From positions 1 to 44,884 of the forward strand of contig CALFNG010000338.1 in NCBI GenBank assembly GCA_937902985.1: a stretch of 44,884 bases of DNA, read 5' to 3'. The position numbers were made by a program, and so were the translations under genes. Shown piece by piece: positions 15,127 through 23,548 of this stretch. Numbering within the stretch: position 1 is the stretch's first letter; each line of letters starts with the position of its first letter. This DNA is from an uncultured Myxococcales bacterium. GTDB taxonomy: Bacteria > Myxococcota_A > Polyangia > Polyangiales > Polyangiaceae. Under the pieces are notes generated by a model. It saw only the letters and a program-made list of their open reading frames with translations, did no database searches and was not told where the DNA came from.

Positions 15127-15828
15127 TCACGTCTCGCTCTTCAGCCGATACCCGACGCCGGGCTCCGTGACGAGATACCGCGGGTGCGCCGGGTTCTCCT
15201 CGAGCTTCTGGCGTAGCTGCGCCATGTACACGCGAAGGTACTGCATCTGCGTCGCGTGACCTGGCCCCCAGACCTGATCGAGCAGCTGCTTGTGCGTCAG
15301 CACCATGCCCGCGTGCTTCGAGAGGGTGACGAGCAGCTTGTACTCGATGGGCGTCAGGTGGACCTCCTTGTCGCCGACGGACACGAGGCGCCTGGCGATA
15401 TCGATCCGCAGCTCGCCGATCAAGACCACGGACGTCAGGGGGTCTTGCGCGGTGCGTGCGGCACGACGCAGGGCCACGCGGACGCGCGCCATGAGCTCGG
15501 CGGAGCCGAATGGCTTGGTCAGGTAGTCGTCGGCGCCGGCGTCGAGGGCTTCGACCTTTTGCCGCTCGTGGCCTCGAGCGGAGATGACGATCACCGGCGT
15601 CGCGGTCCACTCGCGGAGGCGGCGGGTCACGTCGAGCCCGTCCATGTCCGGCAGACCGAGATCGAGGAGCACGAGGTCGGGGGTGTGCGCGGCGGCCTGC
15701 TGGAGCGCCTCGCGTCCCGTCTCGACCTCGAGGACGCGGAAACCGTGGGACGCGAGAGCAAGACGCAGCAGCGTCCTCATCTGGTGCTCGTCCTCGACGA
15801 CGAGGACCAGGGGCTTCGTGTCGGTCAT
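15127..15828 (-). CDS. kdpE: KdpE response regulator of potassium uptake
   Basis: 233-residue OmpR/PhoB-type regulator. The receiver domain (1-120) has acidic VEDE (11-14), phospho-acceptor D56 in LLDLGLPDMDGLD and K105 in DDYLTKPFG. The C-terminal winged helix (about 140-230) has LTPIEYKLLVTLSKHAGMVL and ends YLVTEPGVGYRL, typical of KdpE. ATG 15828 overlaps the kdpD stop by ATGA, so the two are translationally coupled. As the partner of KdpD it should activate kdp transcription at low potassium. It is the last gene of the operon; hairpin repeats follow its stop. Confidence 0.96.
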   Translation of the reverse strand: MTDTKPLVLVVEDEHQMRTLLRLALASHGFRVLEVETGREALQQAAAHTPDLVLLDLGLPDMDGLDVTRRLREWTATPVIVISARGHERQKVEALDAGADDYLTKPFGSAELMARVRVALRRAARTAQDPLTSVVLIGELRIDIARRLVSVGDKEVHLTPIEYKLLVTLSKHAGMVLTHKQLLDQVWGPGHATQMQYLRVYMAQLRQKLEENPAHPRYLVTEPGVGYRLKSET

Positions 15829-18563
15829 GGCTCTTGGCGCTCGACCTCGCCGTCCACCTCGCCCTGCACCGAGTGCGCCGCGGCCTCGACGGCCGCGTCC
15901 CGGGGGAGCGTGAACCGGAAGGCCGCGCCCCCGCCCGGCCGCTCGTCGACCCAGATGCGCCCGCCGTGCGCGCTCACGATGCCGCGGCAGATCGTGAGCC
16001 CGAGACCGACGCCGCCGCCTTCGCCCTCGCGGACACGAAAGAACTTGTCGAACACCCGCTCGGCGTCTTCGCGAGCGACGCCCCGTCCGCGATCCGCCAC
16101 CTCCACCTCGATCTCCTTCTCGCGCGCGATCGCGCCCACGTCGATGGGCGAGCCGGGCGGAGAGTACTTCGTGGCGTTCTCGAGCAAGTTGATGAGCACC
16201 TGTTCGATGAGAATCGCGTCGAACGGCACGAGAGGCAAATCGGGCGGGACCGACGTCACGACCGGGCGCCCTTTCAGGCGGTCTTCCACGCGGTTGAGGG
16301 CCGAGCCGACGATCTCCTCGAGCGGCTGGAGGTCGCGCTGCACCTTCAAGGCGCCGGCCTCGAGCCGGGTCATGTCGAGGAGGTTGCTCACGAGTCGGTT
16401 CAGGCGGAGGGCCTCTTCGTGCGCCGTGACGAGCAGTTCGCGCCGCACCGCCGCGTCCTTCGGGACGTCGTCTTCGAGGAGCGCGCTCGTCGCGCCCGTC
16501 ACGACGCCGAGGGGCGTACGCAGATCGTGCGAGACCGAGCTCAGAAGCGCGTTGCGGAGCTGCTCGGTCTCGATGCGCAGGCTGGCCCGTCGCGCCTCCT
16601 CGGCGAGCTGCGTTCGCTCGATCGCCGAGCCGATGAGGCCCGCGATCGTCGAGACGAGCTGCCGCTCGTCGGGATCGTCGAGGTGCGACGCATGCGACGG
16701 ATAGAGGCCCAGAACGCCGACGCGTCCCCGCGACCCCACGAGCTGAACGAAGAGCCCTCGCGCAAGCGGCAGCGTGTCGGTTCCGAGACCGGCCGGGCGC
16801 TGGTGGTTCCAGACCCAGTCGGCGACGCCCATGTCCTTGTCGTCGGTCGCGAGCGTGCCCGGGTCGGCGTGGGCGATCTCCAGCTCTTCGGGCCGCGATC
16901 CGGGCAGCAAGACGGCGACCCGGGCGTCGAACACCTCCTGCACGTGCCGCGTCGCCGCCTGGAGGATGACAGCGCGCGACGTGGCCGTGCCGAGCTCGCG
17001 GCTGATGGCGTAGAGGCTCGCGGTTCGGCGCTCCCGCCCGCGCGCGCTGTCGGCCTGATCGCGGATGCGATTGGTGAGCTGACTGATGACGACCGCCACG
17101 AGGAGCATCACCCCGAACGTGACGATGTGGCTGAAGTCGGTGACGGCGAAGCTCAGGTACGGTGGGATGAAGAAGAAGTCGAAGGCGAGGACGCTCAAGA
17201 CCGCCGCGAGCATCGACGGGCCGTACCCCAGGCGCATCGATACGAGGACGACGCCCAGCAAGAACACCATCACGATGTCCGCCAGCTGCGCGCGGCCGAA
17301 CAGCCACCACGCGACCATCGCCGACGTGACGACGACGCCCAGCGCCGCGACGTACCCGCGGGGCTCCCCGTAGGGCGCCCGGCGGCCGGGCGTCGAGACC
17401 GCAGGCGCTTTCGCCCCGGGGATGCCGGAGATCACGTAGATGTCGATCTCGCGGCTCTTGCGCACAAGATTGTCGAGGAACGACGGACGGATGACGTCGC
17501 GCCAGCGTGGATGGGTGGGCTTGCCGACGACGATCTTGGTGACGTTTCGCTTGCGCGCGTAGCGAACGGTCTCTATGGCGCCGTCCTCTGCGCGGAGCGT
17601 CACGGCCTCCCCGCCCAGCGATTCGACGAGGCGCATGTTCTGCGCGAGGCGCTCGCGATCCGGCGCGAGCATCCGGATCGACGCCGGCGTCTCGACGTAG
17701 CAACCCACGAGCTCGGCGTGGAGGCTCGTGGCCATGCGCCGCGAGGCGCGGATGAGCGTCGCCGAGTTGGGGCTGGCGGAGATGCAGACGAGCACCCGTT
17801 CGCCGGTGTGCCACGTCTCTTCGATGCCGTGCGCGGCCTTGTAGCCGCGCATCTTCGCTTCGACTCGCTCGGCGGTCCGCCGGAGCGCCAGCTCCCTCAG
17901 GGCGATGAGGTTCCCCTCGCGAAAGAAGTTCTCGACCGCCCGGGACGCCGCCTGGTCCGCGACGTAGACCTTCCCCTCCTGCAGGCGATCGAGCAGCTGG
18001 TCGACGGGCAGGTCGACCACGCGAACTTCGTAGGCCTTGTCGAACACAGCGTCGGGGACGGTCTCGCGGACGACGACCCCGGTGATCTGCGCGACGACGT
18101 CGTTCAGGCTCTCGAGGTGCTGGACGTTCAGCGTCGAGAAGACGTCGATGCCCGCATCGAGGAGCTCTTCCACGTCTTGCCATCGCTTCGGGTGGCGAGA
18201 ACCGGGCGAGTTCGTGTGCGCCAGCTCGTCGACGAGGACCACCTGCGGATGCCGCCGCAGGGTCGCGTCGAGGTCGAACTCTTCGAGCTTGATCCCGCGG
18301 TGCTCGAGCGCCCGGCGCGGGAGCATCTCGAGGCCGATGAGGAGCGCGCCCGTGTCGTACCGACCGTGGGTCTCGACGATTCCGAGCGCCACATCGCGCT
18401 TCTGGTCCTCGGCCTCGGTGCGGGCCGCCTCGAGCATCGTGTACGTCTTGCCGACTCCCGGCGCCGCGCCAAAGAAGATGGTCAGACGGCCGCGCTTGGA
18501 CAGGGCCTCCTGGTCCTGCACGCGGGCGAGAAGCTCATCGGGATCGGGGCGGCGGGCGGCCAT
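15825..18563 (-). CDS. kdpD: KdpD potassium/osmosensing histidine kinase
   Basis: 912 residues, full length. The N-terminal KdpD domain has Walker A GAAPGVGKT (32-40), LVDELAHTNSPGSRHPKRW (110-128) and STLNVQHLESLND (143-155). A Usp-like domain (about 253-380; VLVCISASPNSATLIRASRR) follows, then a four-helix DUF4118 membrane region (about 404-495, including FDFFFIPPYLSFAV), a GAF-like region (510-650), a HisKA domain with H679 in SSVSHDLRTPLG and an ATPase domain (LLENATKYSPPGSPI, GVGLGLTICRGIV). It autophosphorylates in response to potassium limitation and signals to KdpE. It starts 51 bp after kdpC and overlaps kdpE by 4 bp. Confidence 0.97.
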   Translation of the reverse strand: MAARRPDPDELLARVQDQEALSKRGRLTIFFGAAPGVGKTYTMLEAARTEAEDQKRDVALGIVETHGRYDTGALLIGLEMLPRRALEHRGIKLEEFDLDATLRRHPQVVLVDELAHTNSPGSRHPKRWQDVEELLDAGIDVFSTLNVQHLESLNDVVAQITGVVVRETVPDAVFDKAYEVRVVDLPVDQLLDRLQEGKVYVADQAASRAVENFFREGNLIALRELALRRTAERVEAKMRGYKAAHGIEETWHTGERVLVCISASPNSATLIRASRRMATSLHAELVGCYVETPASIRMLAPDRERLAQNMRLVESLGGEAVTLRAEDGAIETVRYARKRNVTKIVVGKPTHPRWRDVIRPSFLDNLVRKSREIDIYVISGIPGAKAPAVSTPGRRAPYGEPRGYVAALGVVVTSAMVAWWLFGRAQLADIVMVFLLGVVLVSMRLGYGPSMLAAVLSVLAFDFFFIPPYLSFAVTDFSHIVTFGVMLLVAVVISQLTNRIRDQADSARGRERRTASLYAISRELGTATSRAVILQAATRHVQEVFDARVAVLLPGSRPEELEIAHADPGTLATDDKDMGVADWVWNHQRPAGLGTDTLPLARGLFVQLVGSRGRVGVLGLYPSHASHLDDPDERQLVSTIAGLIGSAIERTQLAEEARRASLRIETEQLRNALLSSVSHDLRTPLGVVTGATSALLEDDVPKDAAVRRELLVTAHEEALRLNRLVSNLLDMTRLEAGALKVQRDLQPLEEIVGSALNRVEDRLKGRPVVTSVPPDLPLVPFDAILIEQVLINLLENATKYSPPGSPIDVGAIAREKEIEVEVADRGRGVAREDAERVFDKFFRVREGEGGGVGLGLTICRGIVSAHGGRIWVDERPGGGAAFRFTLPRDAAVEAAAHSVQGEVDGEVERQEP

Positions 18564-18614: not shown

Positions 18615-19202
18615 TCACTCGAGCGCGTCGAGGGCGAGGTTCAGCTCCAGGACATTGACGCCGACTTCGCCCAGCACGCCGAGCGTCCGCCCCGCCGTGT
18701 GCGCCTGAACGACCTCGCGGACTCGCGCGTCGTCGAGCCCCCGAGCCTTGGCGACCCGGTGTACCTGGTACTCGGCGGCCGCGGGACTGATCTCGGGATC
18801 GAGTCCGCTCCCGGACGACGTCACGAGGTCGACGGGGATGGGCGCGTCGTTCGCCGGGTCCGCGGCGTGAAGCGCGTCGACGCGCCCTTTCACCTCGTCG
18901 AGGAGGGCGGGGTTGGTCGGCCCGAGGTTCGACGCGACCGAGTTTCCCGCGTTGTAGGGGAGGGCCTTGCCGTTGCTGTCCGCGGTCGCCGACAGGCGTC
19001 CCCAGAAGTACTTCGGGTCGTCGAACGACTGGCCGATCAAGTGCGAGCCGACCGTCTTTCCGTTCTGGACGATGAGGCTCCCGTTGGCCTGGTGTGGAAA
19101 CGCGGCCTGCGCGACGCCCGTGACGAAGAGCGGGTACGCGAGACCCGTCACCACGGTGAGGGCAGCGAGAGAGACGAGTGCAGGTCGAAGCTGGGAGAAC
19201 AT
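18615..19202 (-). CDS. kdpC: KdpC subunit of the potassium-transporting ATPase
   Basis: 195 residues with a single N-terminal membrane helix ([20 protein letters not shown]) and a periplasmic domain. KdpC hallmarks are visible: [56 protein letters not shown] and [19 protein letters not shown]. KdpC stabilises the KdpAB complex and raises its potassium affinity. It starts 14 bp after kdpB and precedes kdpD by 51 bp. Confidence 0.97.
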
Positions 19203-19216
19203 GATGGGCTCCGCGT

Positions 19217-21448
19217 TCAGGCGAGGTGGCAGACGACGAGAAGGAGATCGATGGCCTTGATGCCGACGAACGGCACGACGATGCCCCCGAGACCGTAGAT
19301 GAGCAGGTGATCCCGCAGGAGGCGCGACGCGCCGACTGCGCGGTACTTGATGCCGCGGAGCGCGAGCGGAATCAGCGCGATGATGACGAGCGCGTTGAAG
19401 ATGACCGCGCTCAAGATCGCGCTCTGGGGCGTGGCCAGGTGCATGACGTTGAGGGCGCTGAGGGCCGGGTACGTCACGGCGAAGGCCGCGGGGATGATCG
19501 CGAAGTACTTCGCGATGTCGTTCGCGATGCTGAACGTGGTGAGCGCGCCGCGCGTCATCAGCAGCTGCTTGCCGATCTCGACCACCTCGATGAGCTTCGT
19601 CGGGTTCGAGTCGAGGTCGACCATGTTCCCCGCCTCCTTGGCCGCCTGCGTCCCGGTGTTCATCGCGACGGCGACATCGGCCTGCGCGAGGGCGGGCGCA
19701 TCGTTGGTGCCGTCGCCGGTCATGGCGACGAGCCGCCCGCCCTTCTGGTGGTCGCGAATCAACGCGAGCTTGGTCTCCGGGGTCGCCTGCGCGAGGTAGT
19801 CGTCGACCCCGGCTTCGGCCGCGATGGCCGCGGCCGTCAGCGGGTTGTCGCCCGTGATCATGATGGTCTTGATTCCCATGCGCCGGAGCTCGGCGAAGCG
19901 CTCCTTGATGCCGCCCTTGACGATGTCCTTGAGCTGCACGACCCCGAGCACCTTGCTGCCCTCGGCGACGACCAGCGGCGTGCCGCCCTGCTTGGCGACG
20001 GTGTCGACGTTCGCCCGCACTTCAGCGGGGAACGAGCCTCCCTTGCCGCGTACGTAGGCCTCGATGGCGTCGGCCGCGCCCTTGCGAATCTCGCGACCGC
20101 CGAGATCGACGCCGCTCATGCGCGTCTGCGCCGAGAAGGCCACGAACGTCGCCTTGAGGGCCTGCACGTCCCGTTCGCGGATGGAGTATAGCTCCTTCGC
20201 GAGGACGACGATACTCCGACCTTCGGGCGTCTCGTCGGCGAGCGAGCTCAGTTGCGCGGCGTCGGCCAGGGCCTCGTTGGTGATGCCCGGCGCCGCCAGC
20301 AGCGCGGTCGCCTGGCGGTTGCCGAGGGTGATCGTCCCCGTCTTGTCGAGCAAGAGGACGTCGACGTCGCCCGCGGCTTCCACCGCGCGCCCGCTCGTCG
20401 CGATGATGTTCGCCTGGATCATGCGGTCCATGCCGGCGATGCCGATCGCCGAGAGCAGCCCGCCGATCGTAGTCGGGATGAGGCACACGAGGAGCGCGAC
20501 GAGGACGGTGATCGTGACCGGCAACCCCTGCTTCGCGGCCTCGACGCTGAAGAGCGAGAAGGGCAAGAGCGTGACCGTCGCCAGGAGGAAGATGATCGTC
20601 AGCGCCGCGAGCAAGATGTCGAGCGCGATCTCGTTGGGGGTCTTCTGCCGCTTGGCGCCCTCGACCATCGCGATCATGCGATCGAGGAAGGTCTCGCCGG
20701 GGTTGGCGGTGATGCGGATCACGAGCCAGTCCGACAAGACACGCGTGCCGCCGGTGACGGCGCTGCGGTCGCCGCCGCTCTCGCGGATGACCGGCGCGCT
20801 CTCGCCGGTGATCGCGCTCTCGTCGACCGACGCGACGCCCTCGACGATCTCCCCGTCAACCGGGACGTATTCGCCGGCTTCGACGAGCACGTGGTCTCCT
20901 TTCCGGAGGTCCGAAGCGACGACCGATTGCGCTTCGGCGTCGCGGCGCGCCTCGACGAGGCGTTTGGCGTGGATGTCCTTGCGGGCCTTCCGGAGCGAAT
21001 CGGCCTGCGCCTTGCCACGCCCTTCGGCCATGGCCTCGGCGAAGTTGGCGAAGAGAACCGTGAACCATAGCCACACCGAGATGGCCAGGATGAATGTCGG
21101 CGGCGCCTCGCCATGGCCCACGACCGACTGGACGAAGAGTCCCGTGGTCATGACGCTCCCGACCTCGACCACGAACATGACCGGGTTTCGGATCTGGTGG
21201 CGCGGGTCGAGCTTCTTGAACGAGTCGACCACGGCCCGGCGAACGATCGCGGCGTCGAAGAGGGGGCGAGCCTGGCCCCGCGGTCGATGGCCGCCGAGGC
21301 CCGGGCCGCCGGCGCCGGGGGTGACGTCGACCGAATCGATCGACGTGGGCGCCTCTCCGGCGAGGCGCGAGACGCCGGGCGTGGCGGCGCGAGGCGCAAC
21401 AGTGGCGCCCGCGGCGTCGGTCTTCATGGCGATCTTGTTCGTGTTCAT
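19217..21448 (-). CDS. kdpB: KdpB P-type ATPase subunit
   Basis: 743 residues, catalytic subunit of the Kdp pump. Visible motifs: TGES (214-217, actuator), the transmembrane [20 protein letters not shown] (320-339), phosphorylation site DKTGT with D368, [21 protein letters not shown] and [20 protein letters not shown]. The Ser of TGES is the residue known to be inhibited by phosphorylation in E. coli KdpB. It carries an N-terminal extension of about 60 Ala/Gly/Pro-rich residues before the usual start near [15 protein letters not shown]; the true start could be internal. It lies 15 bp after kdpA and 14 bp before kdpC. Confidence 0.97.
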
Positions 21449-21463
21449 GACGATTTCAGAGCC

Positions 21464-23215
21464 TCATGTCTTGGCGAGGAGCTGTTCCACGATCGGGCCC
21501 AGCGCGAGTGACGGGATGAACGTGAGGGCCCCCACGACGACGATGACGCCCACGAGCATCGCGACGAAGAGGGGCGTGTGCGTCGGAAGCGTGCCGGCCC
21601 CCGGCGGGACGAGCTTCTTTCCGGCGATCGAACCCGCGAGCGCCAGGACCACCACCTTGACCCAGAAGCGCCCGAAGAACATCGAGAGGCCGAGCGTCGT
21701 GTTGTAGAACGGCGTGTTCGCGCTCAGGCCGGCGAAGGCGCTGCCGTTGTTGTTCGCGGCCGACGAGTAGGCATAGAGCACCTCGCTGAACCCGTGAGGC
21801 CCGGGGTTGAACACACCCTTCTTGCCTGCATCGCAGACGACCGCGATCGCAGTGAATATGAGCACGGTCGCTGCCGGAAACAGGATGGCGAGCGACGCCA
21901 TCTTCATCTCGTAGGCCTCGATCTTCTTGCCGATGTACTCGGGCGTACGCCCGACCATGAGCCCGGCCACGAAGACGGCCACGACCGCGAACATCAACAC
22001 GCCGTACATGCCGGAGCCGACGCCGCCGAAGATGACCTCACCGAGCTGGATGAGCCAGAGCGGCACGAGACCGGCGAGCGGCATGAACGAGTCGTGGAAG
22101 CTGTTGACCGCGCCGCACGAGGCGCCCGTGGTCGCCGCCGCGAAGAGACCGGACGCCGAGATGCCGAAGCGCAGCTCCTTGCCTTCCATGTTGCCGCCCG
22201 ACTGCAGCGCGCTCGCGACCTGGTCGACGTGAAGCGACGTGAAGGCCGGGTTCCCCGCCTGCTCCTGGGAGACGCAGAGCCAGAGCATCGGCAGGAAGAC
22301 CACCGCCATCGCGCCGAGGATCGCCCACCCCTGCCGGGTGTCCTTGACCATGCGGCCGAACGTGTACGTGAGCGCGAACGGGATGAGCAGGAGGGCGTAG
22401 ATCTCGAGTGCGTTCGAGAGCGCGGTCGGGTTCTCGAACGGGTGCGCGGAGTTGACGTTGAAGAACCCGCCGCCGTTGGTGCCGAGCTGCTTGATGGCGA
22501 GCTGCGACGCGACGGGGCCGAGCGCGAGGAGCTGGTCGGTGACCGCGTTGCCATCGGCGTCTTTCGTCGCCTGGAGGAGCGTGACGGGGTGATACGCGCC
22601 GAAGGTCTGCACCACGCCCTGCGAGACGAAGACGAGCGCGAAGACGACGGAGAGCGGGAGCAGCACGTAGAGCGTGCAGCGCGTGAGGTCGACCCAGAAG
22701 TTGCCGATCCCGGTCGCTTGCTTGCGCGCGATGCCGCGCACGAGCGCCGCCATGACGGCGATGCCCGACGCCGCGCAGACGAAGTTCTGCACGGCGAGCC
22801 CCGACATCTGCGTCAGGTAGCTCATCGTGGTCTCGCCGCCGTAGCTCTGCCAGTTCGTGTTCGTGGCGAAGCTGACCGCCGTGTTCCAAGAGAGATCGGG
22901 CGTCAACGCGCCGAAGCCCTGCGGGTTCAGCGGCAGCATCCCCTGCAAGCGCTGGAGCACGTAGAGCACGGCGATGCCGGCCCCGTTGAAGAGGAGCATC
23001 GCGCCCGCGTACGTGGTCCACTTCATCTCGCGCTTGGCGGGATCCAGCGACACGCCGGCGAGACGGTAGATGAGCCGCTCGAGCCAGCCGAACGGGGCGT
23101 CGAGGAACGTGGGCTCGCCCTCGAAGACGCGCGCCATGAACGCGCCGAGCGGCTTGGCCGACGCGACGAGCGCGCCGAGCACGAGCACGATCTGCGCGTA
23201 GCCTTGCCAGTTCAT
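21464..23215 (-). CDS. kdpA: KdpA potassium-binding channel subunit
   Basis: 583-residue polytopic membrane protein starting MNWQGYAQIVLVLGA. The pore loops of the KdpA family are present: ATNTNWQSYGGETTMSY (117-133), GTNGGGFFNVNSAHPFENP (245-263), TTGASCGAVNSFHDSFMPLA and a fourth loop with NNNGSAFAGLS. It forms the selectivity filter of the KdpFABC complex. ATG 23215 overlaps the kdpF stop by ATGA. Confidence 0.98.
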   Translation of the reverse strand: MNWQGYAQIVLVLGALVASAKPLGAFMARVFEGEPTFLDAPFGWLERLIYRLAGVSLDPAKREMKWTTYAGAMLLFNGAGIAVLYVLQRLQGMLPLNPQGFGALTPDLSWNTAVSFATNTNWQSYGGETTMSYLTQMSGLAVQNFVCAASGIAVMAALVRGIARKQATGIGNFWVDLTRCTLYVLLPLSVVFALVFVSQGVVQTFGAYHPVTLLQATKDADGNAVTDQLLALGPVASQLAIKQLGTNGGGFFNVNSAHPFENPTALSNALEIYALLLIPFALTYTFGRMVKDTRQGWAILGAMAVVFLPMLWLCVSQEQAGNPAFTSLHVDQVASALQSGGNMEGKELRFGISASGLFAAATTGASCGAVNSFHDSFMPLAGLVPLWLIQLGEVIFGGVGSGMYGVLMFAVVAVFVAGLMVGRTPEYIGKKIEAYEMKMASLAILFPAATVLIFTAIAVVCDAGKKGVFNPGPHGFSEVLYAYSSAANNNGSAFAGLSANTPFYNTTLGLSMFFGRFWVKVVVLALAGSIAGKKLVPPGAGTLPTHTPLFVAMLVGVIVVVGALTFIPSLALGPIVEQLLAKT

Positions 23216-23304
23216 GAGAACGCCTCCGGCTTGAGCAGCGCGACGAAAAGGTAAACGAGCAGGGCGAGCGAGACGCCGCCCCCGATCACGTAGAGAACGG
23301 GCAT
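23212..23304 (-). CDS. kdpF: KdpF small membrane subunit
   Basis: 30-residue single-helix protein, MPVLYVIGGGVSLALLVYL then FVALLKPEAFS, the classical KdpF form. ATG 23304 has a strong ribosome site (GAGGAGA, 5 bp away) and its stop overlaps the kdpA start. KdpF stabilises the KdpABC complex. It starts 10 bp after the small upstream ORF. Confidence 0.95.
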   Translation of the reverse strand: MPVLYVIGGGVSLALLVYLFVALLKPEAFS

Positions 23305-23314
23305 GGAAGTCTCC

Positions 23315-23401
23315 TCAGGCGACCCGCTCGCACAGGCGAACGAGGCCCCACGTCAGGGCAAGCAGGCCGGCGGTCAGCGCCGTGTAGACGATATCCATCA
23401 T
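23315..23401 (-). CDS. Small single-helix membrane protein, first gene of the kdp operon
   Basis: 28 residues from ATG 23401 (or 27 from the adjacent ATG 23398): MMDIVYTALTAGLLALTWG followed by LVRLCERVA. One hydrophobic helix with a C-terminal LVRLCE motif and positive residue, 10 bp before kdpF. From memory, similar unannotated micro-ORFs with a W-x-LV-[RK]-LC-[ED] ending sit ahead of kdpF in other bacteria; I could not check this. It may be an accessory Kdp subunit or a regulatory leader peptide. Confidence 0.7.
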   Translation of the reverse strand: MMDIVYTALTAGLLALTWGLVRLCERVA

Positions 23402-23548
23402 GCGATTGTTGACTCCGGGCAGTGGACGGCGCGCGTCCTGGTCCTCGTCCTCGTTTAGCCGCTTGCGAATGGTTCGCCACGGGCTGACGTCTTGCCGAGA
23501 ACCTAAGCCCACGGTCCATCAAGCCGCCGTCAGGATTCGGCGACTCGA

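Follow-up and report, generated by a model that had tools for sequence, protein, structure and literature searches.

A conserved micro-gene beside kdpF probably encodes an additional single-span subunit of the bacterial Kdp potassium pump

We describe a micro-gene, here called Z, that lies beside kdpF in the kdp operons of many bacteria. We consider it probable that Z is translated and that its product is an additional single-span subunit of the Kdp pump, packing on KdpA (KdpZFABC). Judged from its sequence, Z is a real, conserved gene for a predicted single-span membrane protein tied to Kdp. A preliminary description of the window (the whole stretch of DNA analyzed here, 44,884 nucleotides) had reported a 28-residue open reading frame (ORF) at 23315-23401, lying 10 bp ahead of kdpF. 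The coordinates, the peptide sequence and the spacing are all correct, and the identity of kdpF is backed by curated profiles (Table 1). The same description raised the idea of a small subunit or regulator of the pump. Our analysis supports this idea, and the covariation of Z with KdpA favors a subunit over a leader peptide.

Read from the upstream ATG at 23401, the Z frame on the minus strand reaches a TGA ending at 23315 and gives 28 residues (MMDIVYTALTAGLLALTWGLVRLCERVA); the start conserved in the family usually corresponds to the second ATG (23398), giving 27 residues. "MMD" is seen again in Z of several relatives, and either ATG is possible. The preliminary description took the first methionine as the start: the ORF is a real gene, but that methionine is probably not the conserved start, and we favor the second ATG. 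The candidate Shine-Dalgarno sequence of Z is 11 nt from the first ATG and 14 nt from the second, a long and weak spacing. The GGAG that opens the gap between Z and kdpF is likely the Shine-Dalgarno sequence of kdpF, which in turn overlaps kdpA by 4 nt in the window.

Table 1. Z, the kdp genes and the predicted contact sites on KdpA in the window.
Feature	Positions	Strand	Description
Micro-gene Z	23315..23398	-	27 codons + stop from the conserved ATG, MDIVYTALTAGLLALTWGLVRLCERVA
GGAG, candidate Z Shine-Dalgarno	23413..23416	-	from the sequence only
Gap from Z stop to kdpF ATG	23305..23314	-	10 nt, GGAGACTTCC
kdpF	23212..23304	-	30 aa; PF09604 3.4e-08, TIGR02115 1.6e-08; ATG at 23304
kdpA	21464..23215	-	583 aa; PF03814 2.2e-240, also TIGR00680
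kdpB	19217..21448	-	PF00122, PF00702
kdpC	18615..19202	-	PF02669 2.1e-76
kdpD	15825..18563	-	KdpD sensor, Usp, DUF4118, GAF, HisKA and HATPase domains
KdpA codons 506-518 (T506, F513, W518)	21662..21700	-	predicted Z contact face, helix 502-531
KdpA codon I81	22973..22975	-	helix 66-89; covaries with Z T9

Z is under selection as a protein. Over 22 pairs of copies at 70-98.5% DNA identity, the pooled dN/dS of Z was 0.33, and the other two frames gave 0.91 and 2.21; with duplicate loci left in, the values were 0.32, 0.93 and 2.17. Merging duplicate ids reduced the Z copies from 169 to 157 and the Z-kdpF gaps from 167 to 155, with 22 pairs both times. The 157 distinct copies start with ATG (146), GTG (7) or TTG (3), and one has none of these there; the start chooser that we used favored ATG. 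The consensus reads M-D-L-L-[YF]-L-x-L-T-x-x-F-F-x-x-T-x-G-[LF]-V-R-x-C-[DE]-[RK]-L, with Asp at position 2 in 95% and the C-terminal motif C-[DE]-[RK]-L. Helical periodicity of the conservation, taken by itself, gave p 0.055.

The preliminary description had made its case depend on the peptide recurring upstream of kdpF in related species, and it does recur, in the window's phylum and in many others. Within a set of 58 genomes, KdpA was found in 18 (the window's own counted), and Z was present at 15 of the 17 loci with sequence upstream of KdpA, the exceptions being L003 and L006. Sampling beyond this set covered 80 named genome loci and annotated plasmid regions. We left out 12 of 434 loci that gave no KdpA by tblastn and, among later loci, 2 with too little upstream sequence and 7 with a KdpA shorter than 450 aa; counting identical KdpA segments once reduced 405 rows to 387. 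A Z profile scored at least 10 bits upstream of kdpA at 270 of these 387 distinct loci (245 at 15 bits, 224 at 20), where the loci sampled are the better KdpA matches per group and the counts are not rates for all bacteria. At 10 bits, control matches numbered 0 of 387 on the antisense strand, 1 of 387 inside kdpA and 0 of 387 in shuffled upstream sequence. The profile was trained on 108 loci, and 105 of the 387 distinct loci have the KdpA of a training locus; among the other 282, it matches 165 at the 10-bit level, 140 at 15 bits and 122 at 20. Z matches that score 8-15 bits carry less certainty. The profile also includes seven distant copies chosen by eye, from Parabacteroides, Bacteroides, Listeria, Bacillus, Subdoligranulum, Arthrobacter and Rhodococcus. 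Copies of Z occur in the window's phylum, Pseudomonadota, Planctomycetota, Chloroflexota, Nitrospirota, Acidobacteriota, Deinococcota, Actinomycetota, Bacillota, Bacteroidota and others, those of Bacillota and of Bacteroides-like plasmids having initially been picked by eye.

The association with kdp is specific. In 16 whole genomes, all 19 profile hits at E<=1e-3 fall within about 250 nt upstream of a kdpA, and the next-best hit has E 0.1; most of these genomes contributed a profile row, so that the search tests specificity more than sensitivity. The 16 genomes carry 21 kdpA, of which the third copy in the window's genome and the Methylomonas copy are without a Z hit. The genome G062, with at most one profile row, has four kdpA and a divergent Z ahead of each.

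Z and kdpF occur together at 266 of the 387 distinct loci. Of the 387, 117 are without a Z profile match, and kdpF is present in 103 of these. No Z was found at the loci of E. coli (L199), Klebsiella (L116) or Moraxella (L105); enterobacteria are among the lineages without Z. The E. coli pump is functional all the same, so Z is dispensable for a working Kdp pump. A KdpA tree of 177 distinct rows has 154 with Z and needs 13 state changes; its absences are scattered, which shows that a mature pump can do without Z. This would also be expected of a chaperone that assists the assembly of KdpA or its insertion into the membrane and then departs from the completed pump, and KdpF and KdpC are themselves called structural chaperones in an excerpt of PMC12629597. 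We regard such a chaperone as unlikely; covariation between Z and KdpA would be expected of a chaperone and of a subunit alike.

Several other small frames were seen in these surveys. Many loci without a strong Z match have a small hydrophobic ORF whose end coincides with the kdpF start or comes close to it, and such alternative ORFs are notable in the phylum of L058 (a Bacteroidetes record). L329-L347 and L411-L426 have divergent small hydrophobic ORFs, e.g., MITFLLLALAVMLFAICFLSVEFFEKI (L341) and MNVYHHLYFGILIFLILAGAAGLIGFIFHIGG (L413), which are possibly fast-evolving Z or replacements of it. The window's genome has three kdpA, the third of which (contig C382, L003) has neither a recognizable Z nor a recognizable kdpF upstream. 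In L144, KdpA lies inside a 1231-codon open frame with a Z-like ORF and no recognizable kdpF upstream. On plasmid pRL11 of Rhizobium johnstonii 3841, the annotation places a hypothetical protein of 51 residues between kdpA and kdpB (L108 3214-3369). No natural fusion of Z to KdpF or KdpA came to notice along the way.

The position of Z bears on whether its product matters at all. Z commonly precedes kdpF, and 71 of 155 distinct copies end in a 4-nt overlap with the start of kdpF, as might be expected of a leader peptide or translational coupler that acts by opening the kdpF start or by attenuation and whose product is irrelevant. On Deinococcus plasmids (L107, L117), however, the order is kdpB-Z-kdpF-kdpA-kdpC, and in L169 it is kdpF-Z-kdpA. 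Judged from gene order, Z is therefore internal in the former and follows kdpF in the latter, rather than marking the 5' end of a transcript, and a 5' leader reading is insufficient. In D. radiodurans, kdpBAC corresponds to DR_B0083, 0086 and 0087, which leaves tags over between B and A (PMC5716572, in excerpt). The selection on amino acids, the conserved membrane helix with its end motif and the covariation with KdpA also speak against a leader. No sigma-70 promoter, intrinsic terminator or other terminator-like site was found, and the single Rfam match has E 0.12 and 16.9 bits against a cut-off of 45. Taken together, a leader or coupler appears very improbable.

Further evidence for a subunit comes from covariation. 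We aligned Z, KdpF and KdpA per operon, together with the N-terminal 490 residues of KdpB, and calculated mutual information with average-product correction. Among Z-KdpA pairs, the first 152 loci (Meff 117) put Z16-A518 (9.5-9.8 sd) and Z12-A513 (7.4 sd) at the top, and Z5-A506 (5.2 sd) lies in the same register. These three pairs were fixed as predictions before new loci were fetched. Their ranks are 9, 6 and 41 of 14,275 in the 118 new loci (Meff 83) and 1, 2 and 3 of 14,300 in all 271 loci (10.8, 9.3 and 7.4 sd). The fourth pair in all 271 loci, Z9-A81 (6.8 sd), is outside the prior predictions. Z positions 5, 9, 12 and 16 make up one helix face, and the best parallel offsets between Z and KdpA are 502 and 501. 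As comparison, the best KdpA-KdpB pair in the 271 loci reaches 8.6 sd, which both Z16-A518 and Z12-A513 exceed; in the first set, the best KdpA-KdpB pair equals Z16-A518 (both 9.8 sd). In the new loci alone, the top Z-KdpA pair is Z21-A71 (7.2 sd), several Z19 pairs likewise outrank the three predictions, which the best KdpA-KdpB pair (8.2 sd) also exceeds.

At the level of residues, Z12 and A513 show a size swap (F/L 113, L/F 34, F/F 7, L/L 7), and Z16 is T or S in 103 of the 109 loci whose KdpA has W518. Once the Z in every row had been replaced by that of a close relative (averaged over 12 draws), the four top pairs fell from 10.5, 9.9, 7.8 and 6.8 to 3.7, 1.4, 1.5 and 0.9, and these falls are the four largest of all pairs. 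Shared ancestry can inflate such a signal, and heavy thinning weakens it. With one row per 70% KdpA cluster (118 rows), Z16-A518, Z12-A513, Z5-A506 and Z9-A81 rank 3, 1, 2 and 14, respectively; with one row per 65% cluster (64 rows), they rank 103, 2, 213 and 1; and with thinning to 34 rows, they rank 955, 6, 32 and 307. Tree-based sign tests on independent pairs gave median p values of 0.06 for T/S at Z16 with W518, 0.125 for F at Z12 versus F513 and 0.02 for F at Z5 with T506; three further codings gave 0.18, 0.23 and 0.58 (six contrasts reported among nine). The effect is in the expected direction for the best codings and of modest size. We regard the parallel register between Z and KdpA as well supported, though short of proof. 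A gene encoded with kdpFABC and selected as a protein, whose product covaries with one of the core subunits in a register that makes steric sense, if more weakly when heavily thinned, is what would be expected of a subunit.

Against KdpB (the first ~490 residues) and KdpF, the maxima for Z in the 271 loci are 5.6 and 4.8 sd, with no consistent register. Among the partners compared (KdpA, KdpB and KdpF), the strongest covariation of Z is therefore with KdpA and in one helix register, which argues against Z being a regulator of the sensor kinase KdpD or of expression that touches KdpA transiently or never; that Z remains beside kdpF despite the changed operon order in Deinococcus and L169 argues likewise. 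Such a regulator would fit with kdpD lying in the same cluster, and KdpF has been discussed, in an excerpted source, as a regulatory membrane peptide in mycobacteria. We consider a regulatory role improbable, though less so than a leader.

We next place the covarying residues on the structure of KdpA. Modeled with AlphaFold2 (50 sequences; pLDDT 88.7, pTM 0.91), the KdpA of the window matches the solved KdpA 7nnp_A, its best structural match, with Z 57.0 and 1.5 Å over 557 residues, and it has predicted helices 66-89 and 502-531 at the covarying positions. In the E. coli locus L199, the counterparts of residues 506, 513, 518 and 81 of this KdpA are Cys483, Phe490, Gly495 and Leu74. By alignment, its residues 516 and 519 correspond to Arg493 and Val496 of the solved KdpA, which sit along the K+ path according to an excerpt of PMC12629597. 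Position 518, between these two, should face elsewhere by helix geometry. Of the 271 rows with Z, 109 have Trp at position 518, 31 have Gly and 31 have Ala; the 21 loci without Z that were shown have Gly there in nine cases, Ala in four, Trp in one (L042) and another residue in seven.

From these findings, we propose a mechanism for the subunit. Z would be produced together with KdpF and would insert so that Asp2 faces out and C-[DE]-[RK]-L faces in, an orientation that we infer from the parallel register. Its face of residues 5, 9, 12 and 16 may then fit, from the lipid side, into a KdpA groove bordered on one side by the helix that follows the fourth pore loop (506, 513, 518) and on the other by the first helix of repeat 1 (81). 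The former helix, which Z is predicted to contact, also bears Arg516 and Val519, the counterparts of the E. coli residues on the ion path. By bracing this helix from the lipid side, Z may stabilize the complex, and it may set the shape of the vestibule and the apparent K+ affinity; both of these effects are less certain than the packing.

A wider possibility, which we put forward tentatively and rate at slightly under even chances, is that the ancestral bacterial Kdp was a five-subunit KdpZFABC with KdpZ bracing the helix, and that the E. coli complex of the solved structures is secondarily reduced. KdpZ may then gate or tune the helix that it braces in KdpA, which makes up the back of the K+ vestibule and a section of the tunnel; in E. 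coli, changes in KdpA could have taken the place of Z, e.g., Gly495 versus the Trp of many Z-bearing pumps.

The Kdp pump is textbook material, and many structures of it have been solved. The solved KdpA found at E<=1e-20 comprise three distinct sequences, which are E. coli's according to their papers, and the E. coli locus L199 is without Z; the structures found are thus of the Z-less type. If our proposal is true, an extra conserved subunit would alter the known make-up of the pump in many bacteria, and the covarying pairs give testable predictions at the level of residues. Published kdp 5'-UTRs may also be partly coding: as given in excerpts, they measure 120 nt in Mycobacterium smegmatis (PMC5401905) and ~100 nt in Caulobacter (PMC8552747), and 143 nt separate a terminator from kdpF in Bacillus thuringiensis (PMC6488665), which, judged by length alone, is long enough for Z.

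Pfam and NCBIfam hold no family for Z, as searched with the window peptide and 95 of the 105 distinct members then known. A known-family reading was dropped: the hits were scattered, each to one or two members, and the best, to BcsF, had E 0.002 and 0.00095 in one member. Searching solved structures with the profile found nothing better than E 0.057, the matches being to PetL-like and other single helices. We also rejected Z as a form of KdpF: the window peptide matches neither PF09604 nor TIGR02115, while the neighboring kdpF matches both, and KdpF is absent from the families matched by the 95 members scanned.

The preliminary description had called the peptide unrecognized, which holds for most copies, but some stand in RefSeq under a wrong or empty name, and a kdpZ is listed in the C. 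acetobutylicum operon. WP_191287747.1 (Mycetohabitans; L101 1308-1412), of 34 residues with one membrane helix, is a Z member misleadingly named "potassium ABC transporter ATPase"; recognition of the Z family would correct the name. WP_281280356.1 (Azospirillum), a "hypothetical protein," is a Z member with its annotated start 14 codons upstream. Our searches of open-access literature turned up no paper on a function of the Z peptide, which does not exclude a description elsewhere.

The closest known counterpart by position is kdpZ. An orfZ/kdpZ of Clostridium acetobutylicum was reportedly described by Treuner-Lange in 1997, in a paper whose abstract is said to mention small hydrophobic peptides, and a kdpZ of Alicyclobacillus reportedly by Schleussinger in 2006. 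To our knowledge, neither has been assigned a function or a wider family. Like Z, these are small ORFs directly ahead of a kdpF-like ORF, and our survey found a clostridial Z member (L124). Z is probably the same as kdpZ of C. acetobutylicum, the two being likened by gene order; the transcript there is written kdpZYABCXDE, as quoted in an excerpt of PMC5401905.

Within the pump itself, Z resembles KdpF in being a single-span protein of ~30 residues encoded in the same operon, and KdpF is thought to stabilize the complex. The two differ in their C-termini, C[DE][RK]L in Z and PE[RKA]F-type (PExF-like) in KdpF, and in the KdpA positions with which they covary. We take the PE[RKA]F-type C-terminus to be a hallmark of KdpF; it is also seen in the KdpF rows here. 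Beyond Kdp, FXYD proteins, phospholamban and MgtR are single-span peptides that tune P-type ATPases. Z differs from them in covarying more with the channel-like KdpA than with the ATPase KdpB (first 490 residues).
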